Origin: Oceanispirochaeta crateris
GTDB taxonomy: Bacteria; Spirochaetota; Spirochaetia; DSM-2461
Reading direction: 5' to 3'
Assembly: GCF_008329965.1 (NCBI RefSeq)
Contig: NZ_CP036150.1
Coordinates: 434,001 to 498,000, forward strand
Length of the DNA: 64,000 nucleotides
Both the position numbers and the translations under genes were made by a program. Of the stretch, positions 12,994 to 31,190 are shown in pieces; the first letter of the stretch is position 1, and each line of letters starts with the position of its first letter. The notes beneath the pieces were generated by a model. That model made no database searches, was not told the DNA's origin, and was given only the letters and a program-made list of their open reading frames with translations.

Positions 12994-13017
12994 CTTACGC
13001 TTAATTGGATGTTATAT
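12994..13017 (+). repeat. Half attC site (3' arm only) at element/array junction
   Basis: CTTAATTGGATGTTATAT matches the 3' arm of the complete site at 21247-21355 almost base for base and ends in GTTATAT, the exact partner of the ATATAAC that closes the first cassette. The 5' arm is absent; phage-like element DNA lies there instead. It marks the left end of the cassette array and a possible attR. Confidence 0.7.
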
Positions 13018-13066
13018 CGCAAAACGGTTAGCTAAAAATATGATATATTGGATAAGGAGAAAAGAT

Positions 13067-14161
13067 ATGGGATTGAATCAAGAATTAGAGAAAGAAGAAA
13101 CAAAAATAAAAACTGATAATTATCCGATGTCAATTGGTGAAATAATCAATTTATACTCTGATAAAGATATAAATCTAACACCTGCTTTTCAAAGGTTGTA
13201 TCGTTGGAGTGAAGCTCAGAAAACAAGATTTATAGAATCTATTTTACTTGGAATTCCTATTCCACCAATATTTGTTTCTCAAAAGGATAATGGGAAATGG
13301 GATGTAGTAGACGGAGTTCAGCGATTATCTACCATTCTTCAATTTGCAGGTGAACTAAAAGATTATGACCCATTGAAATTAGATAAAGGTAAATTACTCC
13401 CATCTCTTAATGGGATGACATGGGAAAAAATAGATGCAGATATTAGACGAAAATTTAAAAGAAGAAAACTGGGTATTAATATTCTTTTGACAGGAAATAA
13501 TACTAAATCTCAATATGAACTATTCCAACGATTAAATACAGGTGGTACTGATTTATCTGGTCAAGAAGTACGGAATTGTTTACTGATTATGCTTAAAAAA
13601 GATCTTTTTGAACAAATAAATAATCTTAAAATTTATAATTCTTTTGAAACATGTGTTCCGCTTACAGATAAAGCTAAAAGTGAAGAATATCATATGGAAT
13701 TAATAGTCCGGTATTTTATTTCAACACTCAATGAATTAAATGTTAACGAATATAAACCTTTTGGAAGTATTGATTTTTCAGAATTTTTGGATATGGAAAT
13801 CATAAAAAGTATTGATAACACCCAAATAAATTGGAGTAATGAATACATTAAGTTTAAACAGGTTTTTGATTTTCTAAAAGATTTATTAGGAGAAGGAATA
13901 TTCAAAAAAGCATTTGAAGTAGATGGAGAAATAAAATTTCAAGGTCCATTTACTCTTACTTCTTTTGAAGTATTAATTCCTGGAATATATAAAAATCTTG
14001 ATCAGATAAAATTAAAAGAAAAGGAAGATATAAAAAGCCAAATTATAAAAATATACAAACATTCTGAATTTAAGAAAAATATGCGTGTTGGTAGAAATTC
14101 AATACAAAGATTTATTTGCTTAAAAGAATTGTCAATAGAGATATTTGATGAGTTCGTATGA
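13067..14161 (+). CDS. DUF262 (GmrSD-N/ParB-like) protein, cassette 1
   Basis: The start is the ATG after AAGGAGAAAAG; an upstream start at 13040 lacks a ribosome site. About 364 aa. LTPAFQRLYRWSEAQKTRFI, LLGIPIPPIFV and VVDGVQRLSTI (DGxQR motif near residue 82) define DUF262, a ParB/Srx-fold nucleotidase domain used in GmrSD-like and Brex-linked defence enzymes. FQRLNTGGTDLSGQEVRNCLL is the second family motif. The C-terminal HNH half of full GmrS-D is absent. Its stop overlaps the start of the HEPN partner by 4 bp, so the two are one operon and probably one system. Confidence 0.85.
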   Translation: MGLNQELEKEETKIKTDNYPMSIGEIINLYSDKDINLTPAFQRLYRWSEAQKTRFIESILLGIPIPPIFVSQKDNGKWDVVDGVQRLSTILQFAGELKDYDPLKLDKGKLLPSLNGMTWEKIDADIRRKFKRRKLGINILLTGNNTKSQYELFQRLNTGGTDLSGQEVRNCLLIMLKKDLFEQINNLKIYNSFETCVPLTDKAKSEEYHMELIVRYFISTLNELNVNEYKPFGSIDFSEFLDMEIIKSIDNTQINWSNEYIKFKQVFDFLKDLLGEGIFKKAFEVDGEIKFQGPFTLTSFEVLIPGIYKNLDQIKLKEKEDIKSQIIKIYKHSEFKKNMRVGRNSIQRFICLKELSIEIFDEFV

Positions 14162-14859
14162 TAGATCCAATAGAAAAGTTTGAAGATTCATTAGTAAAAG
14201 ATCTCGCATGGAGAAAAAAAGAACTTCAAATTCTTAAAATGGCAATTATTGATACTGAAAATATCATTTATATCAAATCCTATTTATTGTTGTTATATTC
14301 GCACTGGGAAGGTTTTGTAAAAAAATCCGCATTGAGTTATCTAAATTTTATTAACTCTAGAAAAATTAAGCTCCATAAACTAAATGACAATTTTCTTTAT
14401 CTAAAAATAAAAAAAGATATTAATGATTGTAGTCTTTCATTAAATAATCCAAGTATAGGTAATGAATTAAAACTAATCCGGAAAATTGATAAAGCTAAAA
14501 ATGAAATATTTAAGATAAAGATTAGTAATAATGACAAACTCAAATTTATTGATACAGAATCAAATTTATCTTCTTCTGTTTTTGAAAAAATTCTAAATAT
14601 ACTCGGTATTGAAATACCAGTTGATTTTTCAGAGTTGATAATCGATAAAACAAATAGTTATAGATATAAAGCAAGAATACATCTTATTGATTTTTTACTA
14701 CAGGAAAGAAATTCTATAGCACATGGAGATGTAATATTAGAAGATGATATAAATGACATCTTAGATAGGTCAGTAAAAATTGTTGAACTATTGGATTTAT
14801 TTATAATCACTTTAGTAGAAAATATTCGAGTAAAGAATTATTTGAAAAGTGTATCATGA
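14158..14859 (+). CDS. MAE_28990/MAE_18760-like HEPN protein, cassette 1
   Basis: 233 aa. SYLLLLYSHWEGFVKKSALSYL is the hallmark of the MAE_28990/MAE_18760-type HEPN family, and RNSIAHGD (about residues 183-190) is the catalytic R-x4-H motif of HEPN ribonucleases. The gene overlaps the DUF262 stop by 4 bp. HEPN proteins of this kind often neighbour DUF262 genes, suggesting a toxin or defence pair in which the HEPN part cuts RNA. Very AT-rich, unlike the phage genes to the left. Confidence 0.82.
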   Translation: MIDPIEKFEDSLVKDLAWRKKELQILKMAIIDTENIIYIKSYLLLLYSHWEGFVKKSALSYLNFINSRKIKLHKLNDNFLYLKIKKDINDCSLSLNNPSIGNELKLIRKIDKAKNEIFKIKISNNDKLKFIDTESNLSSSVFEKILNILGIEIPVDFSELIIDKTNSYRYKARIHLIDFLLQERNSIAHGDVILEDDINDILDRSVKIVELLDLFIITLVENIRVKNYLKSVS

Positions 14860-14869
14860 AATGATTGCG

Positions 14870-14976
14870 ATATAACAAAAAAATGGAGCAGACAATATTT
14901 TTGTCACCGTCTTTGCATGCGCAAAGCCAGCGCCAACCCTACGGGACAATCTTGCTGCTCATTTAGGGCGTTATAT
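14870..14976 (+). repeat. attC site 1
   Basis: ATATAAC opens and GTTATAT closes a 107-bp imperfect palindrome (GGAGCAGACAAT pairs with the ATCTTGCTGCTC end). The crossover point is after G14970. The GTTATAT box matches the end of cassette 2. Confidence 0.9.
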
Positions 14977-14994
14977 AGATTAAAGAGGTTAGTG

Positions 14995-16488
14995 TTGGAT
15001 TATAAAAAAATGATATTTCAATTTGGTGTTTTAATTGATACCTTCTCTGACTCTTGTGATGATAAAAACTTATCAAAATTAATTTCAGAAATAGAAATAT
15101 TTGTAGAAAAGGAAAAAATAGAAAAAAAACTAAGTGCAATATTGTTCTATTATCTTGGTAATGCGTGGTCGTCACTAGATAATATAAGAAATAGAAATGA
15201 TTCAAATATTTGGTTATTGAATAGAGATGAATTTGATCAATCAATCATAAACTATAGAAAAGCAATTAATCAAATAGATGATAATGGAGAAAATAGCAAT
15301 CTTAGTTGTTCTCTTTTTACTAATCTAGCAAATGCATATAGTCAAATAGGAAGGCCAATAAGTGCTATTGCATTATGGAATAAATCTCTATTGATTAACA
15401 AAAATTTTCAGATGGCTATAGGAAATAAGGGTCAAGGACTATTTGAATATTCAAAGATGATGTATGACCCAAGTCATAGAGATCTCATAGGTCGTGAATC
15501 ATTTTTTTTACTATCAAAATTAGATTATAAAAAGCTTCATTATACGGCATCTGAAATATTTAAAAACATTAAAGAAAAACTAGGTTCATATTTTAGTGAT
15601 GAATATCTTAGAAAAGAATTTGATACTGAAAAATATGAGTTGGGAAGCAGACAAAATGAAATAGATTATTGGAATTGGGTTTTAAACACATCCCTTTTTC
15701 TTAATCCTTTAAATGATATCAATAAATCAAATACAGTAGCACACGATATTTTATCTCTTCCATCTATGATTGTACCAAAAGAATTAAAGCATGATGAACC
15801 TATATTCCATAGGCTGTTTAATGAAATTAAACAAGAATTTATAAGTTTAAGATATTTTTACTATAAGTATTTAATTTCTCAAGAAGATTTAATTCATTTT
15901 TCTGATAGTAACAGAAATTTAATTAATACTCTTGATTATTCTCAGCTAGGATTAAAATATGAATATTTGAAAATATCATTCAGAATGGCATATTCAATAT
16001 TTGATAAAATATCATATTTTCTGAATAAATATTTAGTTTTAAATATTCCAGATCATAAGGTTTCTTTTAAAAACATTTGGAGGGAGTATGATACTGGAAA
16101 GAACAAATTTACAAAAGAATTATGTATACACATTATAGACTTAAAAAACAAACCCCTAAGAGGATTATATTTTATTAGCAGAGATTTTTATGAGCTTGAT
16201 GAATCATTAAGTTTAGTATTAGATCCTGATGCAAAAAATATTGCAAAGATTAGGAATTATATAGAGCATAAGAGTTTTATTATCCATTGGGATATTGCAG
16301 GCTGGACTGAAAAAGAATCGTACAGTTATCATATAGCAGAGAAAGATTTCTCTAATAAGTGTTTCTTTCTAATTGAAAAGGTTAGAGAAGCAATTATTTA
16401 TTTATCTTTATCAGTTCATTCAGAAGAAGAAAAATCGGAGAATGATGATATAACTATTCCAATAATAATGCCTAGTTATGATTACTAG
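14995..16488 (+). CDS. LA2681-like HEPN protein with TPR-like N-terminus, cassette 2
   Basis: About 497 aa from a TTG at 14995 preceded by AAAGAGG; the ATG at 14917 lies inside attC and is unlikely. The first 200 residues have TPR-like helical repeats (FTNLANAYSQIGRPISAIAL, ALWNKSLLINKNFQMAIGN). The C-terminal third resembles the LA2681-type HEPN domain first noted in Leptospira; IRNYIEHKSF near residue 419 gives the R-x4-H ribonuclease motif. It is followed after 18 bp by a SIR2-like gene in the same cassette, so the two probably act together, perhaps as sensor/RNase and NAD-consuming effector. Confidence 0.78.
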   Translation: MDYKKMIFQFGVLIDTFSDSCDDKNLSKLISEIEIFVEKEKIEKKLSAILFYYLGNAWSSLDNIRNRNDSNIWLLNRDEFDQSIINYRKAINQIDDNGENSNLSCSLFTNLANAYSQIGRPISAIALWNKSLLINKNFQMAIGNKGQGLFEYSKMMYDPSHRDLIGRESFFLLSKLDYKKLHYTASEIFKNIKEKLGSYFSDEYLRKEFDTEKYELGSRQNEIDYWNWVLNTSLFLNPLNDINKSNTVAHDILSLPSMIVPKELKHDEPIFHRLFNEIKQEFISLRYFYYKYLISQEDLIHFSDSNRNLINTLDYSQLGLKYEYLKISFRMAYSIFDKISYFLNKYLVLNIPDHKVSFKNIWREYDTGKNKFTKELCIHIIDLKNKPLRGLYFISRDFYELDESLSLVLDPDAKNIAKIRNYIEHKSFIIHWDIAGWTEKESYSYHIAEKDFSNKCFFLIEKVREAIIYLSLSVHSEEEKSENDDITIPIIMPSYDY

Positions 16489-16506
16489 TAATAAATAAGG
16501 ATAACT

Positions 16507-17526
16507 ATGAGTATACCAAAAGAGTATAGCGAGTTAAAGCTTAGTGAATTACCTCATGTTGTTATATTAGGAGCTGGCTCAAGTTGTGCAGCAAATCCCA
16601 ATGGTGATAAAAATAATAAAAAACTACCGATGATGAACCAAATACCAGACGTTATTAGGTTATCTGATATTTTAAGTGATGAAGAAATTGAATCAGCAAA
16701 AGATAATTTTGAACTTTTTTTTGATGAACTCGTTCAATCAAAAAAAACAGAAATAACTGAAGAAATTGAGTCACGGTTATATAATTATTTTGACTCACTA
16801 GAACTATCAGATGAATTAACTTTATATGACAGACTAATATTTTCTCTTAGAAGAAAAGATTTAATTGCTACTTTTAATTGGGACCCACTTCTTTCTTATT
16901 CTTACAGAAGGAATAGCTCTCTTAAAACATTACCTCACTTAGTATTCTTACATGGAAATGTATTACAAGGTGTTTGTAATGAAGACAAGATACTTGGTTG
17001 GAAGGATGATGTTTGTAATATTTGTAAAAAATCCTTTTCACCAACAAAACTTCTATATCCTGTTTCTAATAAAATATATGATATTGATGATGTCATTAAT
17101 GAGCAATGGAAAATTCTTGAAGATTATATTTCAAATGCCTATTACATTACGATCTTCGGTTACAGTGCTCCGTTTACAGATATTAATGCAAGAGAAAGGA
17201 TTATTAATCACATAAAAGAAAACAAAAGAAAAAGATTCTTGCAATTGGAAATCATAGATATTAATGCTGAATCACTGGTTGCTAGTAACCTTAAAGATAT
17301 CATTGTAGATACTCACTACTCATTATTAAATTCATTTGATAAAAGTTGGTTAGTTCTGCACCCTCGTTTTACATGTGAAGCATTATTTGAAGCAACAATG
17401 CAGCTAAAACCTCTTACTCCAATTCCTTTTCCAGATGGGTCATTACAAGAATATCAATCATGGGTTTATGAATTAAATGAAGCCTTTAGTGGATTTGAGA
17501 AAGAAGGGAATGAAAAGCAAGGCTGA
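16507..17526 (+). CDS. SIR2-like NAD-binding protein, cassette 2
   Basis: 339 aa. VVILGAGSSCAANPNG (about 18-33) is the nucleotide-binding GAG(A/S)S motif; DLIATFNWDPLL, LVFLHGNV with a likely catalytic His near residue 149, and ITIFGYSAPFTDINARE near 216 follow in the order of SIR2_2-type domains. CNICKKSF may be part of a metal site. Defence-associated SIR2 enzymes deplete NAD when phage is sensed. Ribosome site AAGG precedes the ATG. Paired with an LA2681-HEPN gene 18 bp upstream. Confidence 0.8.
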   Translation: MSIPKEYSELKLSELPHVVILGAGSSCAANPNGDKNNKKLPMMNQIPDVIRLSDILSDEEIESAKDNFELFFDELVQSKKTEITEEIESRLYNYFDSLELSDELTLYDRLIFSLRRKDLIATFNWDPLLSYSYRRNSSLKTLPHLVFLHGNVLQGVCNEDKILGWKDDVCNICKKSFSPTKLLYPVSNKIYDIDDVINEQWKILEDYISNAYYITIFGYSAPFTDINARERIINHIKENKRKRFLQLEIIDINAESLVASNLKDIIVDTHYSLLNSFDKSWLVLHPRFTCEALFEATMQLKPLTPIPFPDGSLQEYQSWVYELNEAFSGFEKEGNEKQG

Positions 17527-17529
17527 AAT

Positions 17530-17639
17530 ATATAACGAGCTTTTGAAGCTGTCAGTTCTACTGTCATATTCTGTGCTGGTCTGCTACGCAGGCACAGAAA
17601 ACGCCAGCTTACGAGCTGCAGCTTAAAAGATAGTTATGT
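17530..17639 (+). repeat. attC site 2
   Basis: ATATAAC and GTTATGT bound a 110-bp palindrome with arms GAGCTTTTGAAGCTG / CAGCTTAAAAG. The opening box matches cassette 2's first bases and the closing box starts cassette 3. Confidence 0.9.
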
Positions 17640-17718
17640 ACACACAATGAACATGATAACTAAAACGTGTTCATAAAAGTGCAATATATGCACACGATGA
17701 CATTGACATGTACTAAAA

Positions 17719-18816
17719 ATGGCTTACAATGGACATGATATGTGTAAAATAGCGAATAATAATTTACCTGAATTACCTCCAAAACAAGAAATTGAGACTA
17801 AGAATGTTTTAAAACATGCTATTTCTTCTAACCGAGAGCTAGCAAGGTTAAAGGGATACTGTTCTCTCTTACCAAATGATTCAATATTACTAAGTTCTAT
17901 AATCTTGAAGGAAGCTTCAGCCAGTTCAGAGATAGAAAATATCATAACAACCCAAGACGCTCTATATAGGGCTATAGTTGCAAAGGAAAGAATAAATGAT
18001 CCGGCAACAAAAGAGGTTTTAAGCTACAGATCAGCTTTGTGGCTTGGATATAATGAAATAAAGAAAAGCGACATTTTATGTGTAAATACAATACTCTCAA
18101 TTCAAGAAGAGCTTGAACAAAATTCGGCTGGTATAAGAAAATTACCTGGAACAAGTTTAGTCAATGATACAACCGGTGCAGTACTTTATACTCCCCCTGA
18201 TGATGAAGAAGTAATCAATAATCTTCTTACAAATCTTGAGAAATACATAAATTCAGATGATGAAATTGACTCCTTGATAAAGATGGCTGTCATCCATTAT
18301 CAATTTGAATCAATACATCCATTCTATGATGGTAATGGTAGAACAGGTAGAATAATAAATGTCCTTTATCTTGTTTTAAAAGGGTTATTAGATACACCAG
18401 TTCTTTTTCTTAGTTCATATATAATTAAAAATAAAACACAATATTATAGGCTACTTCAACAAATGCATAAGTCCGAAAATTGGGAAGATTGGATAGTATA
18501 TATGTTAAAAGCTGTAGAAGAGACAGCAAAGGACACATATAAAATCATTTCAGACATTATGGAATTATTAGAAACGACAATTGAAGTCTGTAAGAGTAGA
18601 CTTCCCAAAAACATTTATTCAAAAGAGCTAGTTGAATTATTATTTGTTCAGCCGTATACAAAAATTGCTTTTCTTGTGGAGGCAGGTATTGCTGAAAGAC
18701 GAACTGCAAGTAAATACCTAAAAGAACTAGAGCTGATAGGAGTATTAGAATCATTTAGATTAGGAAAAGAAACAATATTTGTTAATCGTCCTCTATATGA
18801 TTTACTGCGGAAATAA
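17719..18816 (+). CDS. Fic family protein with Fic_N domain, cassette 3
   Basis: 365 aa (an alternative start is the ATG at 17740). HPFYDGNGRTGR near residue 199 is the complete Fic catalytic motif, including the His and both glycine-rich ATP-binding parts, so AMP transfer to a protein target is likely. ASSEIEN (Ser69, Glu73, Asn74) fits the inhibitory S-x3-E-(G/N) helix, so it is a class II self-inhibited Fic. The C-terminal 80 residues look like a winged helix (IAERRTASKYLKELELIGVL). Alone in its cassette, with no separate antitoxin. Confidence 0.88.
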   Translation: MAYNGHDMCKIANNNLPELPPKQEIETKNVLKHAISSNRELARLKGYCSLLPNDSILLSSIILKEASASSEIENIITTQDALYRAIVAKERINDPATKEVLSYRSALWLGYNEIKKSDILCVNTILSIQEELEQNSAGIRKLPGTSLVNDTTGAVLYTPPDDEEVINNLLTNLEKYINSDDEIDSLIKMAVIHYQFESIHPFYDGNGRTGRIINVLYLVLKGLLDTPVLFLSSYIIKNKTQYYRLLQQMHKSENWEDWIVYMLKAVEETAKDTYKIISDIMELLETTIEVCKSRLPKNIYSKELVELLFVQPYTKIAFLVEAGIAERRTASKYLKELELIGVLESFRLGKETIFVNRPLYDLLRK

Positions 18817-18823
18817 TAGTGGT

Positions 18824-18922
18824 ACATAACAAGCTTTTGAAGCAGACAGTCGGGATGTCATGATCCTTGCATTCGCAACGATCCCGCCATCTTTCCTCCT
18901 GCTGCTTAAAAGAATGTTATGT
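18824..18922 (+). repeat. attC site 3
   Basis: ACATAAC and GTTATGT bound a 99-bp palindrome. Nearly identical to attC site 9, with about three differences, so these two cassettes share a recent attC source. Confidence 0.92.
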
Positions 18923-18937: not shown

Positions 18938-20101
18938 ATGAAAATTCTATTAAGAACATTTATATTACTTTTAATAATAAGCTGTAACTCAAAAGAAGAG
19001 ACTGTAAAACAAGAGCTGGTAAAAGAAATTGTTGATAATGAAAACATATTAGCTGATCAACAGAAAGATCATAAACCTACAGAACTTAAAAGCAACATGA
19101 TTATTGGAAATTCAACCATAAACTCATTAAGAATAAGATCCATTCCAGACATCAATTATGGTGAAATACTAGGTAAGGTTGATTTAAATGAAGAAGTAGA
19201 AATTATTAGCAGAACCCAATGGAACACTTACACAGACAATATTACGGATAGATGGTTAAACATAAAAACAAATAACGGAATCAATGGATGGGTATTTGAA
19301 GGATATTTAGAATATGATACAAAAATTAGAATACCAGAATCAGAAGATGAATTTGAAATTGAAAAATCTTTTATAGTAGATAAGATTGAAGAAATTATTT
19401 CTAATAAAACAAGTGAGATTGTATTCCCATCAGAATTTGATGATAAGCATCAGATAATTCCAACAGGATATGTTGAATATAATGGAATACTACTATGGAC
19501 ACATGGTTCGAGCTTATGGGCCTTTAATGGGAATAAAATAGCACCGATTTTCAATATTAATATTTTGTCCAAAGATAATAAATATATGATTGGACCTATC
19601 TATAAATTCAATGAAAATAAAATATTTATTACCACTGCCTATGGAAAATTCGGAGGATTTTCAATTCATCCATATTTTATTTTTGATCTGAAGACTTGTA
19701 TGATTGAGAAAGACCTTGATGAAAAATTTAATGAATTGATCAAAAACGAAGATATTTATCCATATCGCAATAATTGTAATCTTTTATACGAAGGATATAA
19801 AAAAGTTTTCAATGGTAATCTATATGGGGTTTTTCGAAATAATGACAAAACATCAATATTTATATTTGATAAAACCGAAATGAAAAAATTGAAAAGCATT
19901 CCAGAAGAATACTATGGATATGCTATGAAATTGATATCAGAAAGTGAATTAATTATTTATCAGCCAAAAAATGGGTGGTATGATGAAGATACAGTAGGGC
20001 CATATATAACAATAAAATTCGATTATATTAATGGTATAATTGTTGAAAAATCGCTAATAAGTGAAGATATTATTTGGGATTATCTTAAGCAATTTGATTA
20101 A
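18938..20101 (+). CDS. Lipoprotein with bacterial SH3 domain, cassette 4
   Basis: 387 aa. The N-terminus MKILLRTFILLLIISCNSKE is a lipoprotein signal with Cys as the acylation site. Residues about 65-130 (NSLRIRSIPDINYGEILGKV through WVFEGYLEYD) form a bacterial SH3 (SH3b) domain that commonly binds cell-wall or protein ligands. The remaining 250 residues are beta-rich without a recognised family. Ribosome site AAAGGAAG precedes the ATG. A surface or periplasmic protein is unlike the toxin and defence cargo around it. Confidence 0.75.
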   Translation: MKILLRTFILLLIISCNSKEETVKQELVKEIVDNENILADQQKDHKPTELKSNMIIGNSTINSLRIRSIPDINYGEILGKVDLNEEVEIISRTQWNTYTDNITDRWLNIKTNNGINGWVFEGYLEYDTKIRIPESEDEFEIEKSFIVDKIEEIISNKTSEIVFPSEFDDKHQIIPTGYVEYNGILLWTHGSSLWAFNGNKIAPIFNINILSKDNKYMIGPIYKFNENKIFITTAYGKFGGFSIHPYFIFDLKTCMIEKDLDEKFNELIKNEDIYPYRNNCNLLYEGYKKVFNGNLYGVFRNNDKTSIFIFDKTEMKKLKSIPEEYYGYAMKLISESELIIYQPKNGWYDEDTVGPYITIKFDYINGIIVEKSLISEDIIWDYLKQFD

Positions 20102-20112: not shown

Positions 20113-20222
20113 ACATAACATAGATTTGAAATTGTCATTCCGGCTGTCATATTCTGTGCAATTCTGCTTCGCAGGCACAGAATTCGCCAGCTTTCGGTAT
20201 GCAATTTAAATCGGCGTTATCC
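20113..20222 (+). repeat. attC site 4
   Basis: ACATAAC and GTTATCC bound a 110-bp palindrome (AGATTTGAAATTG pairs with CAATTTAAATC). The ACATAAC box matches the GTTATGT that opened cassette 4. Confidence 0.9.
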
Positions 20223-21252: not shown

Positions 21253-21355
21253 CAAACAATTGAAGTAGAATTACCTACTGTCATGGATCAAGCTATCTAC
21301 TACGTAGGCATGATCCACGCCAGCTGACGGCAATCTACTTAATTGGATGTTATCT
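21247..21355 (+). repeat. attC site 5
   Basis: GGATAAC and GTTATCT bound a 109-bp palindrome (AATTGAAGTAGAATT pairs with AATCTACTTAATT). Its 3' arm is the best match to the half site at 12994-13017. Confidence 0.92.
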
Positions 21356-23420: not shown

Positions 23421-23524
23421 CAAACATTTGAACGTTGACAGCCCTACTGTCACAAATGCTGCTTTTCGCTTCGCGGCAGCATTTCCGCCAGCTTAACGGT
23501 CTGCAAGTTAAATGGGCGTTATGC
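23415..23524 (+). repeat. attC site 6
   Basis: AGATAAC and GTTATGC bound a 110-bp palindrome. The stop codon of the cyclase-like gene lies within the opening box. Confidence 0.9.
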
Positions 23525-23633: not shown

Positions 23634-23755
23634 AGACCAAGGTGAGGATGAAGAGAATATCAAACCATAAGAAGTGTCTAATGAGCAATAGTATAAAATA
23701 GACCTACACAATAGAATGTGTTATGCTTTACACTAACTTGTATTTGGAGGTTGTT

Positions 23756-23956
23756 ATGGCAACTAATTTAGCAATAGATGATCAATTACTGGTGTTAGCG
23801 CAAAATGTCGCTGGTATAAAGACTAAAAAAGAAACAGTAAATCAGGCTCTTAAAGAATTTGTTCAAAGAAGACAGCAAGAAGATATTATCGATCTCTTTG
23901 GAGAAATTGATTATGACGATGATTATGATTACAAAAAACTGAGAGATAGAAATTGA
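23756..23956 (+). CDS. vapB: VapB-type antitoxin, cassette 7
   Basis: 66 aa from the ATG after TTGGAGG (an upstream frame to 23723 lacks a ribosome site). TNLAIDDQLLVLAQNVAG and KKETVNQALKEFVQRR is the VapB ribbon-helix-helix pattern; the acidic C-terminus (YDDDYDYKKLRDRN) would block the VapC active site. Overlaps the VapC start by 4 bp. Confidence 0.88.
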   Translation: MATNLAIDDQLLVLAQNVAGIKTKKETVNQALKEFVQRRQQEDIIDLFGEIDYDDDYDYKKLRDRN

Positions 23957-24372
23957 AAGTACTTGTGGATACATCTGTTTGGTCTCTCGCATTTAGGAAA
24001 AAGAGCCCAACAGAAGATGAGAAGAGAATAATTAATGAACTCAAAGAGCTGATACGTGAGTTACGTGTAGTGCTAATTGGCCCAATTAGACAAGAATTAC
24101 TATCGGGAATCTCAAATGAGATAAAATTCCAGTCATTAAAAGACAAAATGAGGGCATTTGATGATCTGGTTATTACAACACAGGATTATGAATATGCAGC
24201 TAAAATTTATAATGATTGCCGAAAGAATGGAATACAAGGTTCTCAAGTTGACTATTTGATTTGCAGTGTTGCTAGATCAAATAACATCAGTGTATTCTCA
24301 ACTGATAAGGATTTTACCAATTACAATCAAGTAATTGAGCTTAAGCTGCATCAGGTGAGAAAAGAGATATAA
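23953..24372 (+). CDS. vapC: VapC-type PIN-domain toxin, cassette 7
   Basis: 139 aa, TTG start overlapping the antitoxin stop. VLVDTSVWSLAF supplies the first Asp, GPIRQELLSGI the Glu, DYLICSVARSNN and VFSTDKDFTNY the later Asps of a PIN-domain ribonuclease. VapC toxins cleave tRNA or rRNA when freed from VapB. All catalytic acidic residues appear present, so it should be active. Confidence 0.9.
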   Translation: MKVLVDTSVWSLAFRKKSPTEDEKRIINELKELIRELRVVLIGPIRQELLSGISNEIKFQSLKDKMRAFDDLVITTQDYEYAAKIYNDCRKNGIQGSQVDYLICSVARSNNISVFSTDKDFTNYNQVIELKLHQVRKEI

Positions 24373-24378: not shown

Positions 24379-24552
24379 GCATAACAAGCTAATGCACCTG
24401 ACATTCCTATTGTCACACCTTCTTGCTCAAGATCTATTCAATAATAAATAATTGCTTTTCAATATAGTGTTGATGATTTACCATATTGGCAAGAAGTGGG
24501 CCAATACCTGTCCTGCGGCCAGGCCGGAATGCACGTGATCAGGATGTTGTGC
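24379..24552 (+). repeat. attC site 7 (long type, 174 bp)
   Basis: GCATAAC and GTTGTGC bound a longer palindrome (TTCTTGC / GCAAGAAG and TGCACCTGA / GTGATCAGG stems). It belongs to a family with sites 8 and 10, which share most of their sequence. Confidence 0.85.
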
Positions 24553-24765
24553 AGGCAAAAATGCTAGGATTCAGATTTCTGATATTTTCTCATGAAATAT
24601 TTAGGGATTTTCCTTCTCTTGTTGGTATCTGTCTGTCATGGATAAATGTAGCAACCTTGTCGGCTGCGGCTGGCAGAAGTACAAATATAGTGGAATTCGC
24701 CTGCGCCTTATTCAACTGTTTTAAAATTGACCCAGTTCTGGCCGTTGAATTCTGAAGTGGGGGTG
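24547..24765. other. Cassette 8, no convincing gene
   Basis: 219 bp between the crossover points of sites 7 and 8, with matching GTTGTGC and GCACAAC ends, so it is a true cassette. Open frames on either strand run into the flanking attC sites and have no ribosome site. It may carry a small RNA, a promoter or only gene debris. Confidence 0.6.
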
Positions 24766-24937
24766 CACAACAAACTAATGCACCTGACATTCCTTTTGTC
24801 ACACCTTCTTGCTTAAAGTCTTTTCAATAATAAATATTGCTTCTCAATATAGTGTTGATGATTTACCATAATGGCAAGAAGTGCGCCAATACCTGTCCTT
24901 TGGCCAGGCCGGAATGCACGTGATCAGGATGTTCTAC
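24765..24937 (+). repeat. attC site 8 (long type, 173 bp)
   Basis: GCACAAC and GTTCTAC bound a palindrome about 95% alike to site 7 by eye. Confidence 0.85.
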
Positions 24938-25119
24938 AGATTTAAGAATTAATAAGTCTTTAAATCAAAAGAAATAATATAAATTTTAGTAAAATAAGAG
25001 AAATAAATCAAACTCCAGTGGAAGCTCAGCTTTGGAGTAATAAACCTCCGGTGGAAGATTATTATGTTAGAATGAATGATCAGGAAATGGACTAAGTACG
25101 AGATTAGATGTATATTGAA

Positions 25120-25137
25120 CGTACGGATAACCGTACG
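25120..25137. promoter_or_regulatory. Operator dyad before yefM
   Basis: Arms CGTACGG and CCGTACG flank ATAA, and the second arm runs into the GGAGG ribosome site of the antitoxin. A binding site here would block translation start or transcription; YefM-YoeB complexes are known to repress their own promoter at short palindromes. Confidence 0.65.
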
Positions 25138-25146
25138 GAGGATGCC

Positions 25147-25389
25147 ATGAGTTCAATTAATGTAACAAATGCAAGGAAAGATCTGTATAAAATTGTTGAA
25201 ACTGTCAATTTATCTCATGAACCTGTACATATAACAGGAAAAAACAGCTCTGCTGTTTTAATAGGAGAGGATGACTGGAAGAGCATTGAAGAAACGCTTC
25301 ATCTCATGTCCATACCAGGCATGAGAGAATCTATCATTAAAGGAATGAATACTCCAATAGATGAATTAGATGATTCTTTGGATTGGTAA
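25147..25389 (+). CDS. yefM: YefM/Phd-type antitoxin, cassette 9
   Basis: 80 aa; the ATG at 25147 follows CGGAGG, so the frame's earlier start at 25108 (inside the operator) is rejected. INVTNARKDLYKIVETVNLS, EPVHITGKNSSAVLIGEDDW is the Phd/YefM DNA-binding fold. The C-terminus (SIPGMRESIIKGMNTPIDEL) is the toxin-binding helix seen in YefM. It precedes a YoeB gene with no gap. Confidence 0.9.
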   Translation: MSSINVTNARKDLYKIVETVNLSHEPVHITGKNSSAVLIGEDDWKSIEETLHLMSIPGMRESIIKGMNTPIDELDDSLDW

Positions 25390-25650
25390 ATGTTCAAATT
25401 ACTCTATACAAAACAAGCAAAAAAAGATGCAAGAAAGCTATCTGAAAGTAGTCTAAAAAAGAAAGCTCAGCAGATATTAGAAATAATAGAAGTCAATCCA
25501 TTCCAGAATCCACCCCCATATGAAAAACTGATTGGAGATTTAACAGGGGCTTACTCAAGAAGAATAAATATTCAACATCGTATTGTATATCAAGTACTTG
25601 AAAAAGAACAAATAGTTAAAATATTAAGAATGTGGACACACTATGAATAA
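25390..25650 (+). CDS. yoeB: YoeB-type mRNA interferase toxin, cassette 9
   Basis: 86 aa RelE-superfamily toxin. NPFQNPPPYEKLIGDLTGAY, SRRINIQHRIVYQV and ILRMWTHYE are the YoeB signature; the conserved Glu, Arg, His and Tyr of the active site are all present. YoeB cuts ribosome-bound mRNA. It directly follows the antitoxin stop. Confidence 0.92.
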   Translation: MFKLLYTKQAKKDARKLSESSLKKKAQQILEIIEVNPFQNPPPYEKLIGDLTGAYSRRINIQHRIVYQVLEKEQIVKILRMWTHYE

Positions 25651-25658: not shown

Positions 25659-25757
25659 GTAGAACAAGCTTTTGAAGTAGTCAGTCGGGATGTCATGATC
25701 CTTGCATTCGCAACGATCCCGCCATCTTTCCTCCTGCTGCTTAAAAGAATGTTATGC
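25659..25757 (+). repeat. attC site 9
   Basis: GTAGAAC and GTTATGC bound a 99-bp palindrome almost identical to site 3. The opening box pairs with the GTTCTAC that started cassette 9. Confidence 0.92.
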
Positions 25758-25978: not shown

Positions 25979-26320
25979 ATGAATGAAGTATTGATTCTTG
26001 AACCTGCAAAGGAATTTATTGATTCTCTTAGTATTAAAATGCAGGCATAAACATTTAGAACAATTGATTTGTTGCAGGAATTTGGATTCTCATTAGCAAT
26101 GCCACACTCAAAAAAGCTTACTGGTTATGATCTATATGAACTGAGAGTGAAATTTGCATCAGATATTGTTCGCATGTTTTATTATGTCCACAATGGAAAG
26201 ATATTCATTATTTCATCTGGATATATAAAAAAGACAAACAAGACCAGTAAAAATGAAATTGAAAAAGCTATATCGTTAATAAATAGATACTTACAGGAGG
26301 TTGAAGATGAAAGCATATAA
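25979..26320 (+). pseudogene. higB: HigB/Gp49-type toxin with in-frame stop, cassette 10
   Basis: The frame from the ATG at 25979 reads MNEVLILEPAKEFIDSLS..., meets TAA at 26048-26050 after 23 codons, and then continues in the same frame with FGFSLAMPHSKKLTGYDLYE, RMFYYVHNGKIFIISSGYIK and KKTNKTSKNEIEKAISLI, the Gp49/HigB family pattern. One base change (AAA to TAA) would explain the break. A TTG at 26069 could restart translation, but the lost N-terminal strand and helix make toxicity doubtful. The antitoxin gene overlaps its end. Confidence 0.85.
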
Positions 26321-26600
26321 TTATGAAGAATTTAAGAAAGAGCGACTATCTGATCCCCATTTAAAAGCAGAATATGATTTCTTAGAAGAAGAATTCACAT
26401 TATCAAAAGAAATAATTCAACTAAGGAAAGACAAAAACTTAACCCAGAAAGAACTTGCTCATGAAATAGGAAGCTCACAACCAGCAATAGCGAGGCTTGA
26501 ATCAGGGAATTACAGAAATTTATCACTTTCCTTCTTAAGAAAAGTTGCTACAGCTTTAGATGCAGTACCAGAAGTACATCTAAAAAGAAAGGCAAATTAA
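26307..26600 (+). CDS. higA: HigA-type XRE antitoxin, cassette 10
   Basis: About 97 aa. ACAGGAGG at 26294-26301 sets the start at the ATG at 26307, with one at 26301 possible. LRKDKNLTQKELAHEIGSSQ, PAIARLESGNYRNLSLSFLR is an XRE helix-turn-helix in the C-terminal half, with an N-terminal toxin-binding region. It seems intact although its toxin gene carries a stop. Confidence 0.88.
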   Translation: MKAYNYEEFKKERLSDPHLKAEYDFLEEEFTLSKEIIQLRKDKNLTQKELAHEIGSSQPAIARLESGNYRNLSLSFLRKVATALDAVPEVHLKRKAN

Positions 26601-26607
26601 GAACGAG

Positions 26608-26781
26608 GCATAACAAGCTAATGCACCTGACATTCCTATTGTCACACCTTCTTGCTCAAGATCCATTCAATAATAAATAATTGCTTTTCAATATAGTTTT
26701 GATGATTTACCATATTGGCAAGAAGTGCGCCAATACCTGTCCTGCGGCCAGGCCGGAATGCACGTGATCAGGGTGTTATGC
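26608..26781 (+). repeat. attC site 10 (long type, 174 bp)
   Basis: GCATAAC and GTTATGC bound a copy of the long attC type, very close to site 7. Confidence 0.85.
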
Positions 26782-26815
26782 TGAAGAAAGTCTGATTTGC
26801 ACAGAAGGAAGTTTT

Positions 26816-27628
26816 ATGAGTGAATATTCTAAGAAAATATTTCCACAATTACGGATAGCAATTAAACGAGATTTAAATATCGATGATATATTCAAGCAAT
26901 CAAATTTCTTTCAAAATGCACAAAAATATGAAATAGAATTTGGAAAAGTAATACTTGATAATGCTTTTCCTATCCATAAGTATCACATAGCTCTATATAA
27001 CATTTTTCCATTAAAAAATAAGAGATTTGAGTTCAGATTAGCTATTATATATGGAAATAGAGAACTTAGTAAAAATTATAGTTCGAAATATAATGAAAAA
27101 AAAGAATATGAAATAAGAACAGGTTGTATATTACATGGAAAAGGAAGAGAATCCAATAATAATCTAGAAATATTATATAATGACTTCGAAATATTAGAAT
27201 GGAATACTAATGTTTCATATCAGACTTTGAAAGATAAAGTTGGTTGGATTGCGAAACCTGTGTCTCATTCTTTAACAGATGAATTTTTTAAAGAATATAA
27301 AATAGATGATTCACAAAAGATATTTGTTAGCAATCATGGAAAAGTACAAGACGAAAATAGAAAAGATATTGAACCGATATATGATAAAATATGTAAACTT
27401 TTATATGTGAAAAATAAAATTTATATTCACCAATTAGTTGCTTCCCTTTTTTCAATCAATAGGAATAAAACTCTATGTACTCAAGTTCACCATATTGATA
27501 ATAATGGATATAACAACTCTGTAGAAAATTTATTATACGTTTCAGCAGAACAACATGCTTGCATACATACATTTATGTGGGATAAGTATTATTTAAAAGA
27601 TTACATTTTGAATTTTTATAGGCTTTGA
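26816..27628 (+). CDS. HNH endonuclease-like protein, cassette 11
   Basis: 270 aa, ribosome site AGAAGGAAG before the ATG. The C-terminus carries TQVHHIDNNGYNNSVENLLY followed by VSAEQHACIH, an HNH_3/homing-type motif with the His pair near residue 226, the Asn and the last His in place. The first 150 residues are beta-rich and unrecognised and may bind DNA or another target. No partner gene shares the cassette. It could be a defence nuclease, a toxin or a homing-type enzyme. Confidence 0.72.
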   Translation: MSEYSKKIFPQLRIAIKRDLNIDDIFKQSNFFQNAQKYEIEFGKVILDNAFPIHKYHIALYNIFPLKNKRFEFRLAIIYGNRELSKNYSSKYNEKKEYEIRTGCILHGKGRESNNNLEILYNDFEILEWNTNVSYQTLKDKVGWIAKPVSHSLTDEFFKEYKIDDSQKIFVSNHGKVQDENRKDIEPIYDKICKLLYVKNKIYIHQLVASLFSINRNKTLCTQVHHIDNNGYNNSVENLLYVSAEQHACIHTFMWDKYYLKDYILNFYRL

Positions 27629-27737
27629 TTGGGCTAAACCTTAAATATTTATTTGTTTAAAGAAATTACATGATTTACTATGTAAATAGGAAAAAACAAA
27701 TAATGCAATAATGAAAACTAAACAATAGGAAAATTCA

Positions 27738-27845
27738 GCATAACAAAGCCATGAACCAGATTTTCCTATGGCATACTTTCTGCTTTTCGGCTCCGCCGGC
27801 AGAAAATACGCCATCTACGGAAAACAGGTTATGGCGGCGTTATCC
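27738..27845 (+). repeat. attC site 11
   Basis: GCATAAC and GTTATCC bound a 108-bp palindrome (AGCCATGAACCAG / CAGGTTATGGCGG arms). Confidence 0.9.
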
Positions 27846-27878
27846 AGCCTTCGGCCAAAAAAATATTAAAAGGATTGC

Positions 27879-27902
27879 TGATAGTATCATATGATACTAT
27901 CA
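27879..27902. promoter_or_regulatory. 24-bp perfect palindrome before fic (copy B)
   Basis: Same palindrome as 20256-20279, again 7 bp before the Fic start. Confidence 0.75.
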
Positions 27903-27909
27903 TTGAAGT

Positions 27910-28875
27910 ATGAAACCACCGTATGATATTACGAAAACAATATTGGATTTATATGGGCAAATAACAGAAGCATTGGGTATCTGCCAAAGCTTTATGCTTG
28001 TTAAACCAGAAGCACGACTACGCCGTCAAAACCGAATTAAAACAATCCAATCATCTCTTTCAATAGAAGGTAATACACTCAATATTGAGAATGTAACAGC
28101 ATTATTAGATAATCAAAGAATTATTGGTCCAAAAAAAGACATCATCGAAGTACAGAATGCTATCAAAGCATATGATCAGTTGAATGAATTGAGGCCATTC
28201 AATAAAAATGATTTTCTTTCAGCACATGGAATACTAATGAAAGATTTAGTAAAAGCACCTGGAGAATATAGAAAATCACAAGTAGGAATTATGAAGGGGA
28301 AGGAAGTAACACATATTGCCCCCACATCAGAAATGGTTCCTGGCCTAATGAATGACTTATTCAAATACCTTAAAGAAGATACAGATTTAGAAATTATCAA
28401 AAGCTGTGTCTTTCACTATGAGATGGAATTCATTCATCCCTTTGAAGACGGAAACGGAAGAATGGGGAGATATTGGCAAACACGCATATTGATGAAAGTA
28501 AATCCAATATTTGAATTTGTACCAATTGAAAAGCTAATTAAAGATCATCAGAAAGAGTATTATCAGGCCTTATCAATTTCAGATAATACCGGAAAATCAA
28601 CTGTATTTATTGAATTCATGCTAAACATCATAAATCAAGCATTACGTGATACGATTAATGAATCAAAGCCAGCAAGCCCAGATTATCAAAAACGCACAGA
28701 AGTTGCTCTCTCTCAGCTGGATAGCTGGTTTGATAGAAAAGAATATATGAAAGTATGTAAAGGAATCTCTAGTGCTACAGCTAGTAGAGATTTAAAACAG
28801 TTAATTGAAGAAAATAGGATTGAGTCTACAGGTAAAGGTAGAATGACAAAATATAGAATGGAAAAGAGTGGATAA
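27910..28875 (+). CDS. Fic family protein, identical copy, cassette 12
   Basis: Protein identical to that at 20287-21252, with Fic motif HPFEDGNGRMGR, inhibitory helix SIEGNT and C-terminal winged helix. Both copies keep the operator palindrome, so both should respond to one another's product. Confidence 0.9.
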   Translation: MKPPYDITKTILDLYGQITEALGICQSFMLVKPEARLRRQNRIKTIQSSLSIEGNTLNIENVTALLDNQRIIGPKKDIIEVQNAIKAYDQLNELRPFNKNDFLSAHGILMKDLVKAPGEYRKSQVGIMKGKEVTHIAPTSEMVPGLMNDLFKYLKEDTDLEIIKSCVFHYEMEFIHPFEDGNGRMGRYWQTRILMKVNPIFEFVPIEKLIKDHQKEYYQALSISDNTGKSTVFIEFMLNIINQALRDTINESKPASPDYQKRTEVALSQLDSWFDRKEYMKVCKGISSATASRDLKQLIEENRIESTGKGRMTKYRMEKSG

Positions 28876-28978
28876 CAAACAATTGAAGTAGAATTACCTA
28901 CTGTCATGGATCAAGCTATCTACTACGTAGGCATGATCCACGCCAGCTGACGGCAATCTACTTAATTGGATGTTCTAC
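28870..28978 (+). repeat. attC site 12
   Basis: GGATAAC and GTTCTAC. Identical to site 5 up to the crossover point, after which the next cassette's box (TTCTAC) takes over, exactly as the recombination model predicts. Confidence 0.92.
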
Positions 28979-29278
28979 GGACAATTTGAGACGGATTATT
29001 TATTATTCTGAACTGTTTCATTTTTCAAATTCTGAACAAATTAAAATCCTCCTCCGGAAGATCAAGAAATATGGACTATAAAAAATCAAATTGGAAAGAA
29101 CCAGAATGGAATAGGTGTTCTGAATTGATATATTGGTTCATTAATTAACAATATAAAATTAGAATTGGAAAGTATGAAATGAATTTCGGTGTTGTGATCA
29201 ATAATCTCTGTAGAAGATTATGTCTCGAAGAAGCAATTTTCATTGACTGGAAGTATAAACAAAGTATATATTATTAGT
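28979..29278. other. Cassette 13 leader, no gene seen
   Basis: About 300 bp of AT-rich DNA before mazE. A broken frame near 29060-29180 (EDQEIWTIKNQIGKNQNG) looks like coding debris, but I cannot assign it. Confidence 0.35.
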
Positions 29279-29509
29279 ATGGAAGCAAAAATTCAGAAAT
29301 GGGGCAATAGCCTAGGTATTCGTATTCCAATCAATATCATTCGTGATCTAGCACTGGAAAACGGCTCAACTGTTGATATCGAAGAAATTGAAGATCGGAT
29401 TATCATTAAACCAAAACGCAACCTCGAAGATTTATTAAGTTGTATTACAGAAGAGAATTTACATAATGAAATCGATTTTGGTATGCCTGAAGGGAATGAA
29501 TCCTGGTGA
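29279..29509 (+). CDS. mazE: MazE/AbrB-type antitoxin, cassette 13
   Basis: 76 aa from the ATG at 29279 (the frame extends to 29243 without support). MEAKIQKWGNSLGIRIPINI and VDIEEIEDRIIIKPK form the swapped-hairpin AbrB/MazE DNA-binding fold; the acidic C-terminus would wrap MazF. Its stop overlaps the MazF start. Confidence 0.9.
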   Translation: MEAKIQKWGNSLGIRIPINIIRDLALENGSTVDIEEIEDRIIIKPKRNLEDLLSCITEENLHNEIDFGMPEGNESW

Positions 29510-29841
29510 AAAAACAATATATACCTGAACGTGGAGACATAATCTGGCTAAATTTCACTCCTCAGGCCGGACATGAACAAGCAGGAAAAAGACCAGCAAT
29601 AGTTATTTCACCCTCTTCTTATAATTCTAAAACGGGGCTAATGATTGCTTGCCCAATTACGAGTAAAATAAAAAACTACCCCTTCGAAGTACCGGTTATT
29701 GGAAGAAAAATATCAGGTGTTGTTTTATCAGATCAGGTAAAAAACTTAGATTGGCGAGTTCGAGAAGCTGCATTTATTGAAAAAGCAACAGAAACTGCTT
29801 TTTCTGAAGTACAAGAAAAACTCGCATTATTGATAAAATAA
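29506..29841 (+). CDS. mazF: MazF/PemK-type mRNA interferase, cassette 13
   Basis: 111 aa, GTG start overlapping mazE by 4 bp. ERGDIIWLNFTPQAGHEQAG, KRPAIVISP, GLMIACPITSK and VVLSDQVKNLDWR are the MazF/PemK family blocks, with the catalytic Arg and Thr/Ser in place. It cleaves RNA at short sequences when MazE is lost. Confidence 0.92.
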   Translation: MKKQYIPERGDIIWLNFTPQAGHEQAGKRPAIVISPSSYNSKTGLMIACPITSKIKNYPFEVPVIGRKISGVVLSDQVKNLDWRVREAAFIEKATETAFSEVQEKLALLIK

Positions 29842-29885
29842 TAATACAATATTTTAAAATGAAAAATCCGGCATAAAAAGAGGCC

Positions 29886-30019
29886 GTAGAACAAGCAAAT
29901 GAACGAAGACAGAATTTTTTGTCAGGCTCTTTGCACTCACTTCGTTCGAATGCAAAGAGCCCGCCAAATCCTTGCGCTTCGCTCCAGGAACAATTCTGCT
30001 TGTTATTTGGATGTTATAT
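29886..30019 (+). repeat. attC site 13
   Basis: GTAGAAC and GTTATAT bound a 134-bp palindrome (AAGCAAATGAACGAAGACAG and CTGCTTGTTATTTGG arms). Confidence 0.88.
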
Positions 30020-30079
30020 TTGCATGAAACAAATTTATGTCTTACAATATCGGATAAATTATTATTTGAAGGAACCGAT

Positions 30080-31000
30080 ATGGACCCTAAGTTAATAAAG
30101 AGTATTGAAGGTAAAAAAAGAGAACTAGATTCAAATCGACCACTAAATACCTCCATAGTTAAGAAATTGAATGAACAATTCGCAGTAGAATGGATATATA
30201 ATTCAAATGCTATAGAGGGGAATACACTATCTCTTAATGAAACCGAGATTGTTCTGAATTCTGGTGTAACAATCGGTGGAAAAACAGTAAATGAGCACCT
30301 TGAGGTTATAAACCATCAGGAAGGTATTCAATATTTAGAATTACTCATATCCAAAAGAACTGATTTCACAGAAGATTCGATAAAAGAGCTCCATAGACTA
30401 ATTCTCAAAGGAATTGATGATCTTGAAGCAGGAATTTATCGTAGGCATAACGTAAGAATTGTCGGAGCAAGAATAATACCTCCCCAAGCAATAAAAGTAA
30501 AAAGCTTAATGTCAGAACTCATGTCCTGGTATTACGAAAATATGCTTAGTTTACCTATATCAGTATTAGCAGCACAGTTTCATTACAAATTTGTCTGCAT
30601 CCATCCCTTCATTGATGGGAATGGAAGGGTCGCCCGTTTGTTAATGAATCTAATACTAATGAAGAATGGGTTTCCCCCAACAGTTATATTGAAAGTGGAT
30701 AGAAAAAAATATTACAGAGTATTAAATGAAGCAAATATAGGAAACGAAGAGTCTTTTGAGAATTTTATTGGTCGCTCTATTGAAAGATCACTGATAATAT
30801 ATCTCAATAGTATCAAACCCAATACAACAGAAAAACAAGGTTTCATAAATCTCAGAGACGCAAGCAAATACTGTAATTACTCCCAGGAGTATCTTTCGTT
30901 ACTTGCTAGAAAGGGAAAGCTTTCAGCTGTTAAAATTAATAAAGAATGGGTTACAACTCGTGAAGCAATTGAAGATTACGTTAAAGAATTGAAAGAGTGA
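30080..31000 (+). CDS. Fic family protein (third type), cassette 14
   Basis: 306 aa; the ATG at 30080 follows GAAGGAACCG, while the longer frame begins inside attC. HPFIDGNGRVARLLMN near residue 173 is the Fic motif (the second Gly of GxxGR is Ala here: GNGRVAR). NSNAIEGNTL gives Ser42, Glu46, Gly47 of the inhibitory helix. The C-terminus (LRDASKYCNYSQEYLSLLAR, KINKEWVTTREAIEDYV) is a MerR/excisionase-like helix-turn-helix. It differs from the other Fic proteins here. Confidence 0.88.
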   Translation: MDPKLIKSIEGKKRELDSNRPLNTSIVKKLNEQFAVEWIYNSNAIEGNTLSLNETEIVLNSGVTIGGKTVNEHLEVINHQEGIQYLELLISKRTDFTEDSIKELHRLILKGIDDLEAGIYRRHNVRIVGARIIPPQAIKVKSLMSELMSWYYENMLSLPISVLAAQFHYKFVCIHPFIDGNGRVARLLMNLILMKNGFPPTVILKVDRKKYYRVLNEANIGNEESFENFIGRSIERSLIIYLNSIKPNTTEKQGFINLRDASKYCNYSQEYLSLLARKGKLSAVKINKEWVTTREAIEDYVKELKE

Positions 31001-31019
31001 ATACCATATCGAAATAAGG

Positions 31020-31190
31020 TGTCATAGATAGCAAAGATTTGAAATGGTCCTTCCTGCTTGCACAATTCTTGCGGAAACTGCAGATGGATGGAGATATTTT
31101 TATTCGGTGAAAAAGTTCCTAAGAAGCCTGGGAAGGCAAGAGGTGCGCCAAAACCTGTCTTGCAGTCAGGCTAGAATACACGAGATCCCT
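31020..31190 (+). repeat. Degenerate attC site 14, end of array
   Basis: GATAGCAAAGATTTGAAATGG resembles the 5' arm of site 4, and AAGAGGTGCGCCAAAACCTG with TTGCAGTCAGGCTAGAATAC resembles the 3' half of the long type. The boxes no longer fit (AGC in place of AAC; no clear GTT), so recombination is unlikely. Confidence 0.6.

Follow-up and report, generated by a model that had tools for sequence, protein, structure and literature searches.

An integron cassette array headed by an attI-like site, about 1.6 Mb from its presumed integrase, in the chromosome of Oceanispirochaeta crateris

Overview

An integron cassette array was analysed in a 64,000-base stretch of the chromosome of Oceanispirochaeta crateris (NZ_CP036150.1, here C1; a single contig of 4,012,482 bases). 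This whole stretch, C1:434001-498000, is called the window, and positions without the C1 prefix are counted within it. Its attC sites in the window form the distal part of an array of ~58 kb, which starts at an attI-like site at C1:406975, 27 kb before the window. The only gene for an integron integrase (IntI) detected in the genome is found at a distance of about 1.6 Mb, next to another array that shares cassettes with the first. It is most likely, with a probability of roughly 0.65, that this single IntI inserts and shuffles cassettes at both arrays, acting in trans at the window array. That the larger array starts at its own attI-like site suggests one integrase serving several arrays in the genome. 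Spirochaete integrons are already known; what appears to be new is a chromosomal, attI-headed array far from its presumed intI.

attC Sites and Box Pairing

Circular cassettes are inserted by IntI, which recombines their attC, as a folded bottom strand, with attI or attC. Thirteen complete attC sites, 99 to 174 bases long, were delimited at 14870-30019, together with a half site on their left and a degenerate terminal site on their right. The original prediction, made from the sequence alone, had named the same set. In the following list, attC 7 and 8 are supported by boxes and covariance model, and the other complete sites by boxes, fold and covariance model.

13012..13018, +: R' box GTTATAT of the half attC; left edge of the window part, opens cassette 1
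14870..14976, +: attC 1
17530..17639, +: attC 2
18824..18922, +: attC 3
20113..20222, +: attC 4
21247..21355, +: attC 5
23415..23524, +: attC 6
24379..24552, +: attC 7, long type
24765..24937, +: attC 8, long type
25659..25757, +: attC 9
26608..26781, +: attC 10, long type
27738..27845, +: attC 11
28870..28978, +: attC 12
29886..30019, +: attC 13
~31020..31200 (edges approximate), +: degraded terminal attC of the long type, array end; 74% identical over 76 bases to a long attC

Opening box (GTTNNNN) and closing box (NNNNAAC) are reverse complements of each other at 7 of 7 positions in all 13 window cassettes. When the closing boxes were permuted, 2.1 matches were obtained on average, and 13 were reached in none of 200,000 permutations. 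Within single attC sites, the R' and R'' boxes agree fully in only three of the 13. Both this pairing and its interpretation as the trace of circular cassette insertion had been put forward in the original prediction, and both hold.

The bottom strands of 11 attC sites (all but sites 7 and 8) were folded as DNA, a check that had been proposed with the prediction. The folds were stable, with z-scores from -3.8 to -7.8, and for every one of the 11 sites none of 200 shuffles folded equally stably. These 11 of the 13 sites combine AAC/GTT boxes with a bottom-strand hairpin carrying an unpaired base, as is characteristic of an integron cassette array. The consensus fold contains 30 pairs, 20 of which show at least one double compensatory change.

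The covariance model was built from the window sites themselves, so that its recovery of all 13 is circular. It does not detect the degraded terminal attC at ~31020-31200. Searched against 80 named loci with relatives of intI, the model gave nine matches above 40 bits, all in spirochaete loci (L018, L025, and L032), and six weaker ones at 26-31 bits spread over five other loci; no match was obtained in the spirochaete locus L020. No Rfam family matched at gathering scores, and promoter and terminator scans gave results at chance level. A strict arm finder, which found nine of the 13 window sites at threshold 9 and so misses sites, gave 12 matches per 2.97 million strand-bases in a shuffled control. 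The extra base of the attC 5' arm was considered as a distinctive mark, being a top-strand G in 82 of 85 spirochaete attC from the strict finder. The unpaired base is a C in Vibrio and in some class 1 attC. This lead was dropped as not distinctive because the attC of a VIM-2 cassette on a plasmid, read by eye, also has G.

The array continues upstream of the window. Five further attC sites on the same strand were found with the covariance model, at C1:408037, 408937, 410192, 428817, and 431374; the half attC at 13012 has 17 bases in common with the one at C1:410192. The box of the attI-like site, GTTATAG, is paired with CTATAAC of the first attC, and the next pairs are GTTACAC/GTGTAAC and GTTATAC/GTATAAC. 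The boxes GTTATAT/ATATAAC match across a phage-like insertion of ~18 kb (C1:410365-428800). The rule holds for four of five pairs in this upstream part. Including the intI-linked array described below (five of six pairs), 22 of 24 consecutive pairs obey it, against a permutation mean of 2.5, and 22 was reached in none of 200,000 permutations. The failure in the intI-linked array is its last pair, and a transposase gene lies between. At least 25 attC sites are present genome-wide (13 in the window, five upstream, six beside intI, and one alone at C1:1042887). Such counts are lower bounds, as 150 of 1190 first-look candidates were scored here and 138 per genome in relatives.

The Integron Integrase and Its Linked Array

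The window contains no integron integrase, as predicted. The sole match to TIGR02249 there is a tyrosine recombinase with phage-integrase domains by Pfam (11702-12868, minus strand), which scored 28 bits against a cut-off of 265. The search beyond the window that had been recommended with the prediction found one. TIGR02249 matches C1:2082894-2083823(+) at 373.5 bits (372.7 in a repeat), the only match above the cut-off in the genome. The gene, C1:2082618-2083826, encodes 402 amino acids when read from its ATG, and its best PDB sequence match is 2a3v, named site-specific recombinase IntI4 (E 1.9e-72). Matches above the cut-off were obtained in 18 of the 41 genomes searched, this one included.

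The intI-linked array has six attC sites on the minus strand, from C1:2079646 down to 2070336. It is headed by an attI at C1:2081261-2081284(-), which was read by eye and then recovered by the widened consensus described below. An intI above the cut-off, an attI and an adjacent array thus stand together at C1:2.07-2.083 Mb as a complete chromosomal integron. A UbiA prenyltransferase gene (L010 17507-18439) sits between this intI and its attI.

The window array had been predicted to be a cluster of attC sites lacking an integron integrase (CALIN) in a spirochaete. It has at least two attC and no intI nearby, the nearest being ~1.6 Mb off, and the class is appropriate in this respect. The description was incomplete, as it did not include the distant intI, the attI-like head, and the cassettes shared with the intI-linked array, all of which involve sequence beyond the window.

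Cassettes Shared between Arrays and Genomes

Cassette 8 has a copy in the intI-linked array that is identical at 391 of 392 bases, and the cassette of the SoFic-type Fic protein (cassette 3) has one that is 97% identical over 1384 bases. Within the window, cassettes 5 and 12 (20145-21351 and 27769-28974) are duplicates carrying a Fic gene, 98% identical over 1207 bases. In all three cases, the right end of homology falls within three bases of the G/TT exchange point; in two of the three, the left end extends into the preceding attC. With edges near the recombination point and a shuffled order, cassettes appear to move singly.

The comparison of cassette order that had been suggested was run in part, on relatives, and showed single cassettes in other orders. 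At least 22 of the 41 genomes, this one included, hold some match to window cassettes, with at most seven candidates scored per genome in the DNA search. The longer matches are single cassettes with 64-90% identity. In one congener (G001:C15), the SoFic cassette lies directly beside the terminal Fic gene; in O. crateris the two are ~11 kb apart.

attI-like Sites at the Heads of Arrays

Two congeners, G001 and G004, have a conserved site, GAACAANNAAGAAATTATGTTCTA, upstream of intI. The pattern derived from these intI-linked attI finds the 24-base site C1:406975-406998(+) at three mismatches. The first attC of the array running into the window follows after ~1 kb. This array is thus headed by an attI-like site without intI. 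At up to three mismatches, the pattern gave seven sites in six of 13 genomes and none in a reversed control. A widened consensus at up to two mismatches gave seven matches in four of 26 genomes of the family (two in O. crateris, two in G001, two in G004, and one in G003), all within the genus (four of its six genomes), against one in a reversed control. It was drawn from six of those seven sites, and G004:C47 is the independent one.

The motif GATTCARTATAAY lies 127 bases before the GTT at C1:406975 without mismatch. It is found at the intI-linked attI of G001 at -126 (one mismatch) and of G004 at -127 (two mismatches). At the intI-linked attI of O. crateris itself, a form with two mismatches is found at -52.

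A second pattern, made from the intI-linked attI of G008, G017, and G029, was run on five chosen genomes (two matches in a reversed control). G008, from another genus, has two identical attI copies 1.9 Mb apart. G029, from another family, has an identical pair on one strand, separated by 55 kb, and a weaker copy. G017 has one intI-linked attI and a weaker site. Identity between the copies is confined to 26 bases in G008 and to 33 bases in G029, with divergence on either side.

The attI box and the R'' box of the first attC are paired at 10 of 10 heads, against a permutation mean of 1.8; ten was reached once in 200,000 permutations. The covariance model supports the first attC at all ten. An adjacent intI is lacking at four of the heads: C1:406975 in O. 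crateris, G004:C47, G008:C1:1678821, and G029:C1:1746999. The scan of heads in G008 and G029 took only finder matches with top-strand G as the extra base.

Synteny of the second attI locus across the genus was considered and rejected. Seven proteins of the C1:406975 locus (five from the left flank and two from cassettes) were searched by tblastn against nine loci, including the intI-less attI-like sites of G001 and G003, without a match at E <= 1e-5. An all-against-all comparison of G004:C47 with the left flank of C1:406975 likewise gave no match at E <= 1e-20. The only adjacency in common is that of UbiA and attI: a 69% identical homolog of the UbiA gene directly precedes the attI at G004:C47, which has no adjacent intI. 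No attI core was found beside UbiA in G003 or G001 at up to five mismatches, the G003 contig ending 565 bases away.

Origin and Maintenance of the Array

In the favoured explanation, cassettes would enter as circles, and IntI would join their folded bottom-strand attC to attI or to an attC of the array at G/TT. Insertion there would leave the box pairing seen. The window array would be served in trans by the IntI encoded at 2.08 Mb. From these patterns we infer that IntI may act at present on the attI at C1:406975 and on these attC sites, and that the attI fragments may have reached new loci through IntI itself.

Several observations weigh against this explanation. The whole case is a pattern in sequence, and each shared cassette could have come from one common pool in two separate captures. 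One box pair, GTTCGAT and ACATAAC (boundary C1:428924 to 431374), is mismatched. In view of this pair, of the phage-like insertion of ~18 kb and of the interruptions by a phage satellite and insertion sequences (IS), parts of the array may be inert. The UbiA gene between intI and its nearest attI makes a rearrangement plausible. Some heads in relatives are imperfect. The second attI of G029 may be a tandem or internal site, since the two are on one strand and only 55 kb apart, the second one following the intI-linked attI and the same run of attC. The contig end truncates the first attC at G001:C7 (45.1 bits), and that at G004:C47 lies 7 kb from attI. In G008, a candidate nearer to the second attI (box AAAGAAC) is weaker and has no model support, and it was dismissed as the first attC. 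Of four other attI-like sites without intI, those at G001:C1 and G003:C246 lie where the contigs end, and those at G029:C1:1531531 and G017:C44 are followed by no model-supported attC. At the three-mismatch sites in G026 and G028, the GATTCARTATAAY motif is missing and no attC follows; these are probably chance matches.

The strongest of the other explanations, though an unlikely one, is that the array is the relic of a second integron that lost its own intI and is now essentially static. The layout at C1:406975, with the motif at -127, is that of the intI-linked attI in two congeners. Phage-like and IS insertions break up the array, and its last attC is degraded. On the other hand, no IntI remnant was found beside the intI-less attI-like sites in O. 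crateris, G001, G003, G004, G008 or at G029:C1:1746999. Around C1:406975, the search matched only a recombinase of phage type (E from 8.5e-5 to 9.7e-8), apart from chance matches at E 3.7 and E 5.0. A recent exchange between the arrays is implied by cassette 8, whose copy has one difference in 392 bases, and the 26-33 bases shared around the second attI in G008 and G029 are not the flank of an integron. As a separate observation, a truncated IntI/Xer-like fragment lies ~2 kb downstream of the attI-like site at G029:C1:1531531 (L172).

It is less probable still that the array grew by off-target insertion at a genomic site (attG) and that its likeness to attI is convergent. Such insertion has been published as one origin of CALINs (PMC8618304), and the lone attC at C1:1042887 and the attI-like three-mismatch matches without attC in two genomes would be compatible with it. 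Yet 24 bases with no more than three mismatches plus a correctly spaced upstream motif, like the 26-33 bases shared in G008 and G029, far exceed G/TT. Acquisition of the whole block by horizontal transfer, with a resident integrase that does not work on it, is very improbable: the array does hold mobile elements and its cassettes have relatives in other genera, but its attI is like the others found in the genus, and near-identical single cassettes rather than blocks are common to it and the resident array.

Maintenance of both arrays by one IntI leads to a wider proposal, for which the odds are about even, that spirochaete integrons are polycentric. One intI would serve several short attI (about 20-30 bases) at scattered chromosomal positions, each seeding an array. 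Many CALINs of the phylum, and perhaps others, would then be attI-headed daughter arrays and not debris. If maintenance in trans is true, cassette turnover is predicted at more than one place per genome. The shared cassettes, which lie in inverted orientation 1.6 Mb apart, could be substrates for large chromosomal inversions.

Cassette Cargo

The cargo was assigned with Pfam, and with PADLOC and NCBIfam for some proteins. All features listed are on the plus strand.

13040..14161, +: cassette 1, GmrSD N-terminal domain protein (Pfam; PADLOC NsnA, 200 bits)
14158..14859, +: cassette 1, HEPN protein (Pfam)
14917..16488, +: cassette 2, LA2681-like HEPN protein (Pfam)
16507..17526, +: cassette 2, AbiH-like protein (Pfam, 33.6 bits, cut-off 30.9)
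17719..18816, +: cassette 3, SoFic-type Fic protein (Pfam, PADLOC)
18938..20101, +: cassette 4, SH3-domain protein (Pfam)
20287..21252, +: cassette 5, Fic protein (Pfam), near-duplicate of cassette 12
21407..23420, +: cassette 6, two proteins, no family assigned
23723..24372, +: cassette 7, VapBC-like pair (PIN toxin by Pfam; small upstream open reading frame 23723-23956 VapB-like)
24547..24931, +: cassette 8, 385 bases, no convincing gene
25108..25650, +: cassette 9, YefM-YoeB (Pfam)
26069..26600, +: cassette 10, Gp49-like toxin and helix-turn-helix antitoxin, HigBA-like (Pfam)
26816..27628, +: cassette 11, protein with a weak HNH match (23.1 bits, below the cut-off of 24.8)
27910..28875, +: cassette 12, Fic protein (Pfam)
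29243..29841, +: cassette 13, MazEF (MazE/PemK; Pfam)
29972..31000, +: terminal cassette without an intact closing attC, Fic protein (Pfam, PADLOC)

The 14 cassettes carry four toxin-antitoxin (TA)-like pairs, four Fic proteins, GmrSD with HEPN, another HEPN protein, and an AbiH-like gene. Three Pfam families of HEPN are distributed over the two proteins. The true start of the LA2681-like HEPN protein is probably later than listed because the first ATG falls inside attC 1, and that of the terminal Fic protein likewise because the first TTG falls inside attC 13. Most of the predicted cargo was recovered by Pfam: PIN (VapC), YefM/YoeB, HigBA-like, MazE/PemK, Fic, and HEPN. The only match behind the SIR2-like label is that to AbiH, a protein for which NCBIfam and PADLOC gave no match. 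The predicted cyclase (22398-23420) found no support in Pfam, in NCBIfam (one sub-threshold zinc-ribbon match) or in PDB sequences (one chance-level match).

Cassette 8 is a candidate promoter or RNA cassette. Cassettes 7 and 10 have a 133-base leader in common (23518-23650 and 25751-25882; 97% identity) before different genes, and the second cassette of the larger array contains a related stretch of 42 bases (L112 8262-8303). The leader is possibly a shared promoter or the trace of a cassette fusion. On the usual view, arrays are stabilised by TA cassettes and serve as stores of defence genes. The cargo fits this view, and the TA-like and defence-like cassettes may stabilise the array and defend the cell.

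Mobile Elements in and around the Array

The ~18-kb insert at C1:410365-428800 (L112, L113) encodes a D5-like primase and a P-type ATPase and has a sub-threshold match to a head-completion protein. It is probably a mobile insertion inside a cassette. A second element interrupts the larger array within the window:

1930..12868, -: phage-satellite-like element with integrase, terminase, portal, and capsid genes; HD-domain cargo on the plus strand

The contig G004:C56 (L163 1850-14200) holds open reading frames of similar size in the same order as this element, and the integrases are 59% identical. In both species the element ends with TTTTGTCAACTTTTA, followed by 17 bases and then GTTATAT. This 3' half of an attC has identical spacing in the two species and opens a cassette that obeys the box rule; the closing attC of the cassette in G004:C56 scores only 19.9 bits. 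A corresponding attC 5' half was looked for at the far end of both satellites and not found. The satellite end may reflect either an integrase that targets attC or a docking point for cassettes. No attC half was found at the outer flanks of five other homologous integrases, which are among the closest matches (G004:C23, G004:C3, G002:C44, G005:C52, and G021:C294). Elsewhere on the chromosome, there is the lone attC at C1:1042887-1042997 and a 38-base attC half at C1:1037278-1037315.

Comparison with Known Integrons

The window array is like a CALIN in having tandem attC-bounded cassettes with no intI nearby. It differs in its attI head and in the complete-looking intI 1.6 Mb off, whose array shares cassettes with it. 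CALINs are reported to be more numerous than complete integrons in bacteria (PMC9668308), and intI loss, off-target insertion or rearrangement have been proposed for their origin (PMC8618304). An attI-headed array maintained in trans would, if true, be a further route. IntegronFinder 2.0 detects no attI outside class 1 (PMC9024848), so attI-headed arrays could go unseen. In Xanthomonas, CALINs are reported at relatively conserved loci (PMC12444791).

An attI-headed CALIN has been described in the Shewanella prophage M16-3 (PMC9892861). As reported there, a complete integron and a second array are each headed by the same attI, as in O. crateris. Both arrays of Shewanella lie within one prophage, whereas here they are ~1.6 Mb apart on a chromosome, and three related genomes have similar second heads. 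A search limited to part of the open-access literature brought up no comparable chromosomal case.

The original prediction held that little is described in spirochaetes. This is partly so; Treponema integrons have been published (PMC3607928), and attC sites of Spirochaetes were numerous enough for a published covariance model (PMC8352920). The Treponema integrons are likewise spirochaetal, with strain-specific cassettes and attC hairpins. Their intI is described as pointing towards attI, the same way as the cassettes (PMC3607928), unlike that of O. crateris, G004, G008, G011, G012, and G029, which diverges from the array.

The delta-attI cassettes of mobile integrons are reported to end in short attI fragments that are still recombinogenic (PMC12901181). 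They resemble the present case in that short attI fragments move with cassettes, a possible route for the spread of attI. By analogy, IntI itself may have spread the short attI fragments described here. In delta-attI cassettes the fragment ends a cassette inside one integron, whereas here attI copies head arrays.

The sedentary chromosomal integrons of Vibrio contain many TA cassettes, and a resident integrase is their driver. The O. crateris arrays are similar in their TA cassettes and, in the favoured explanation, in being driven by a resident integrase. They differ from those of Vibrio in the mixed lengths of attC (99-174 bases) and in the spread of cassettes over several loci.

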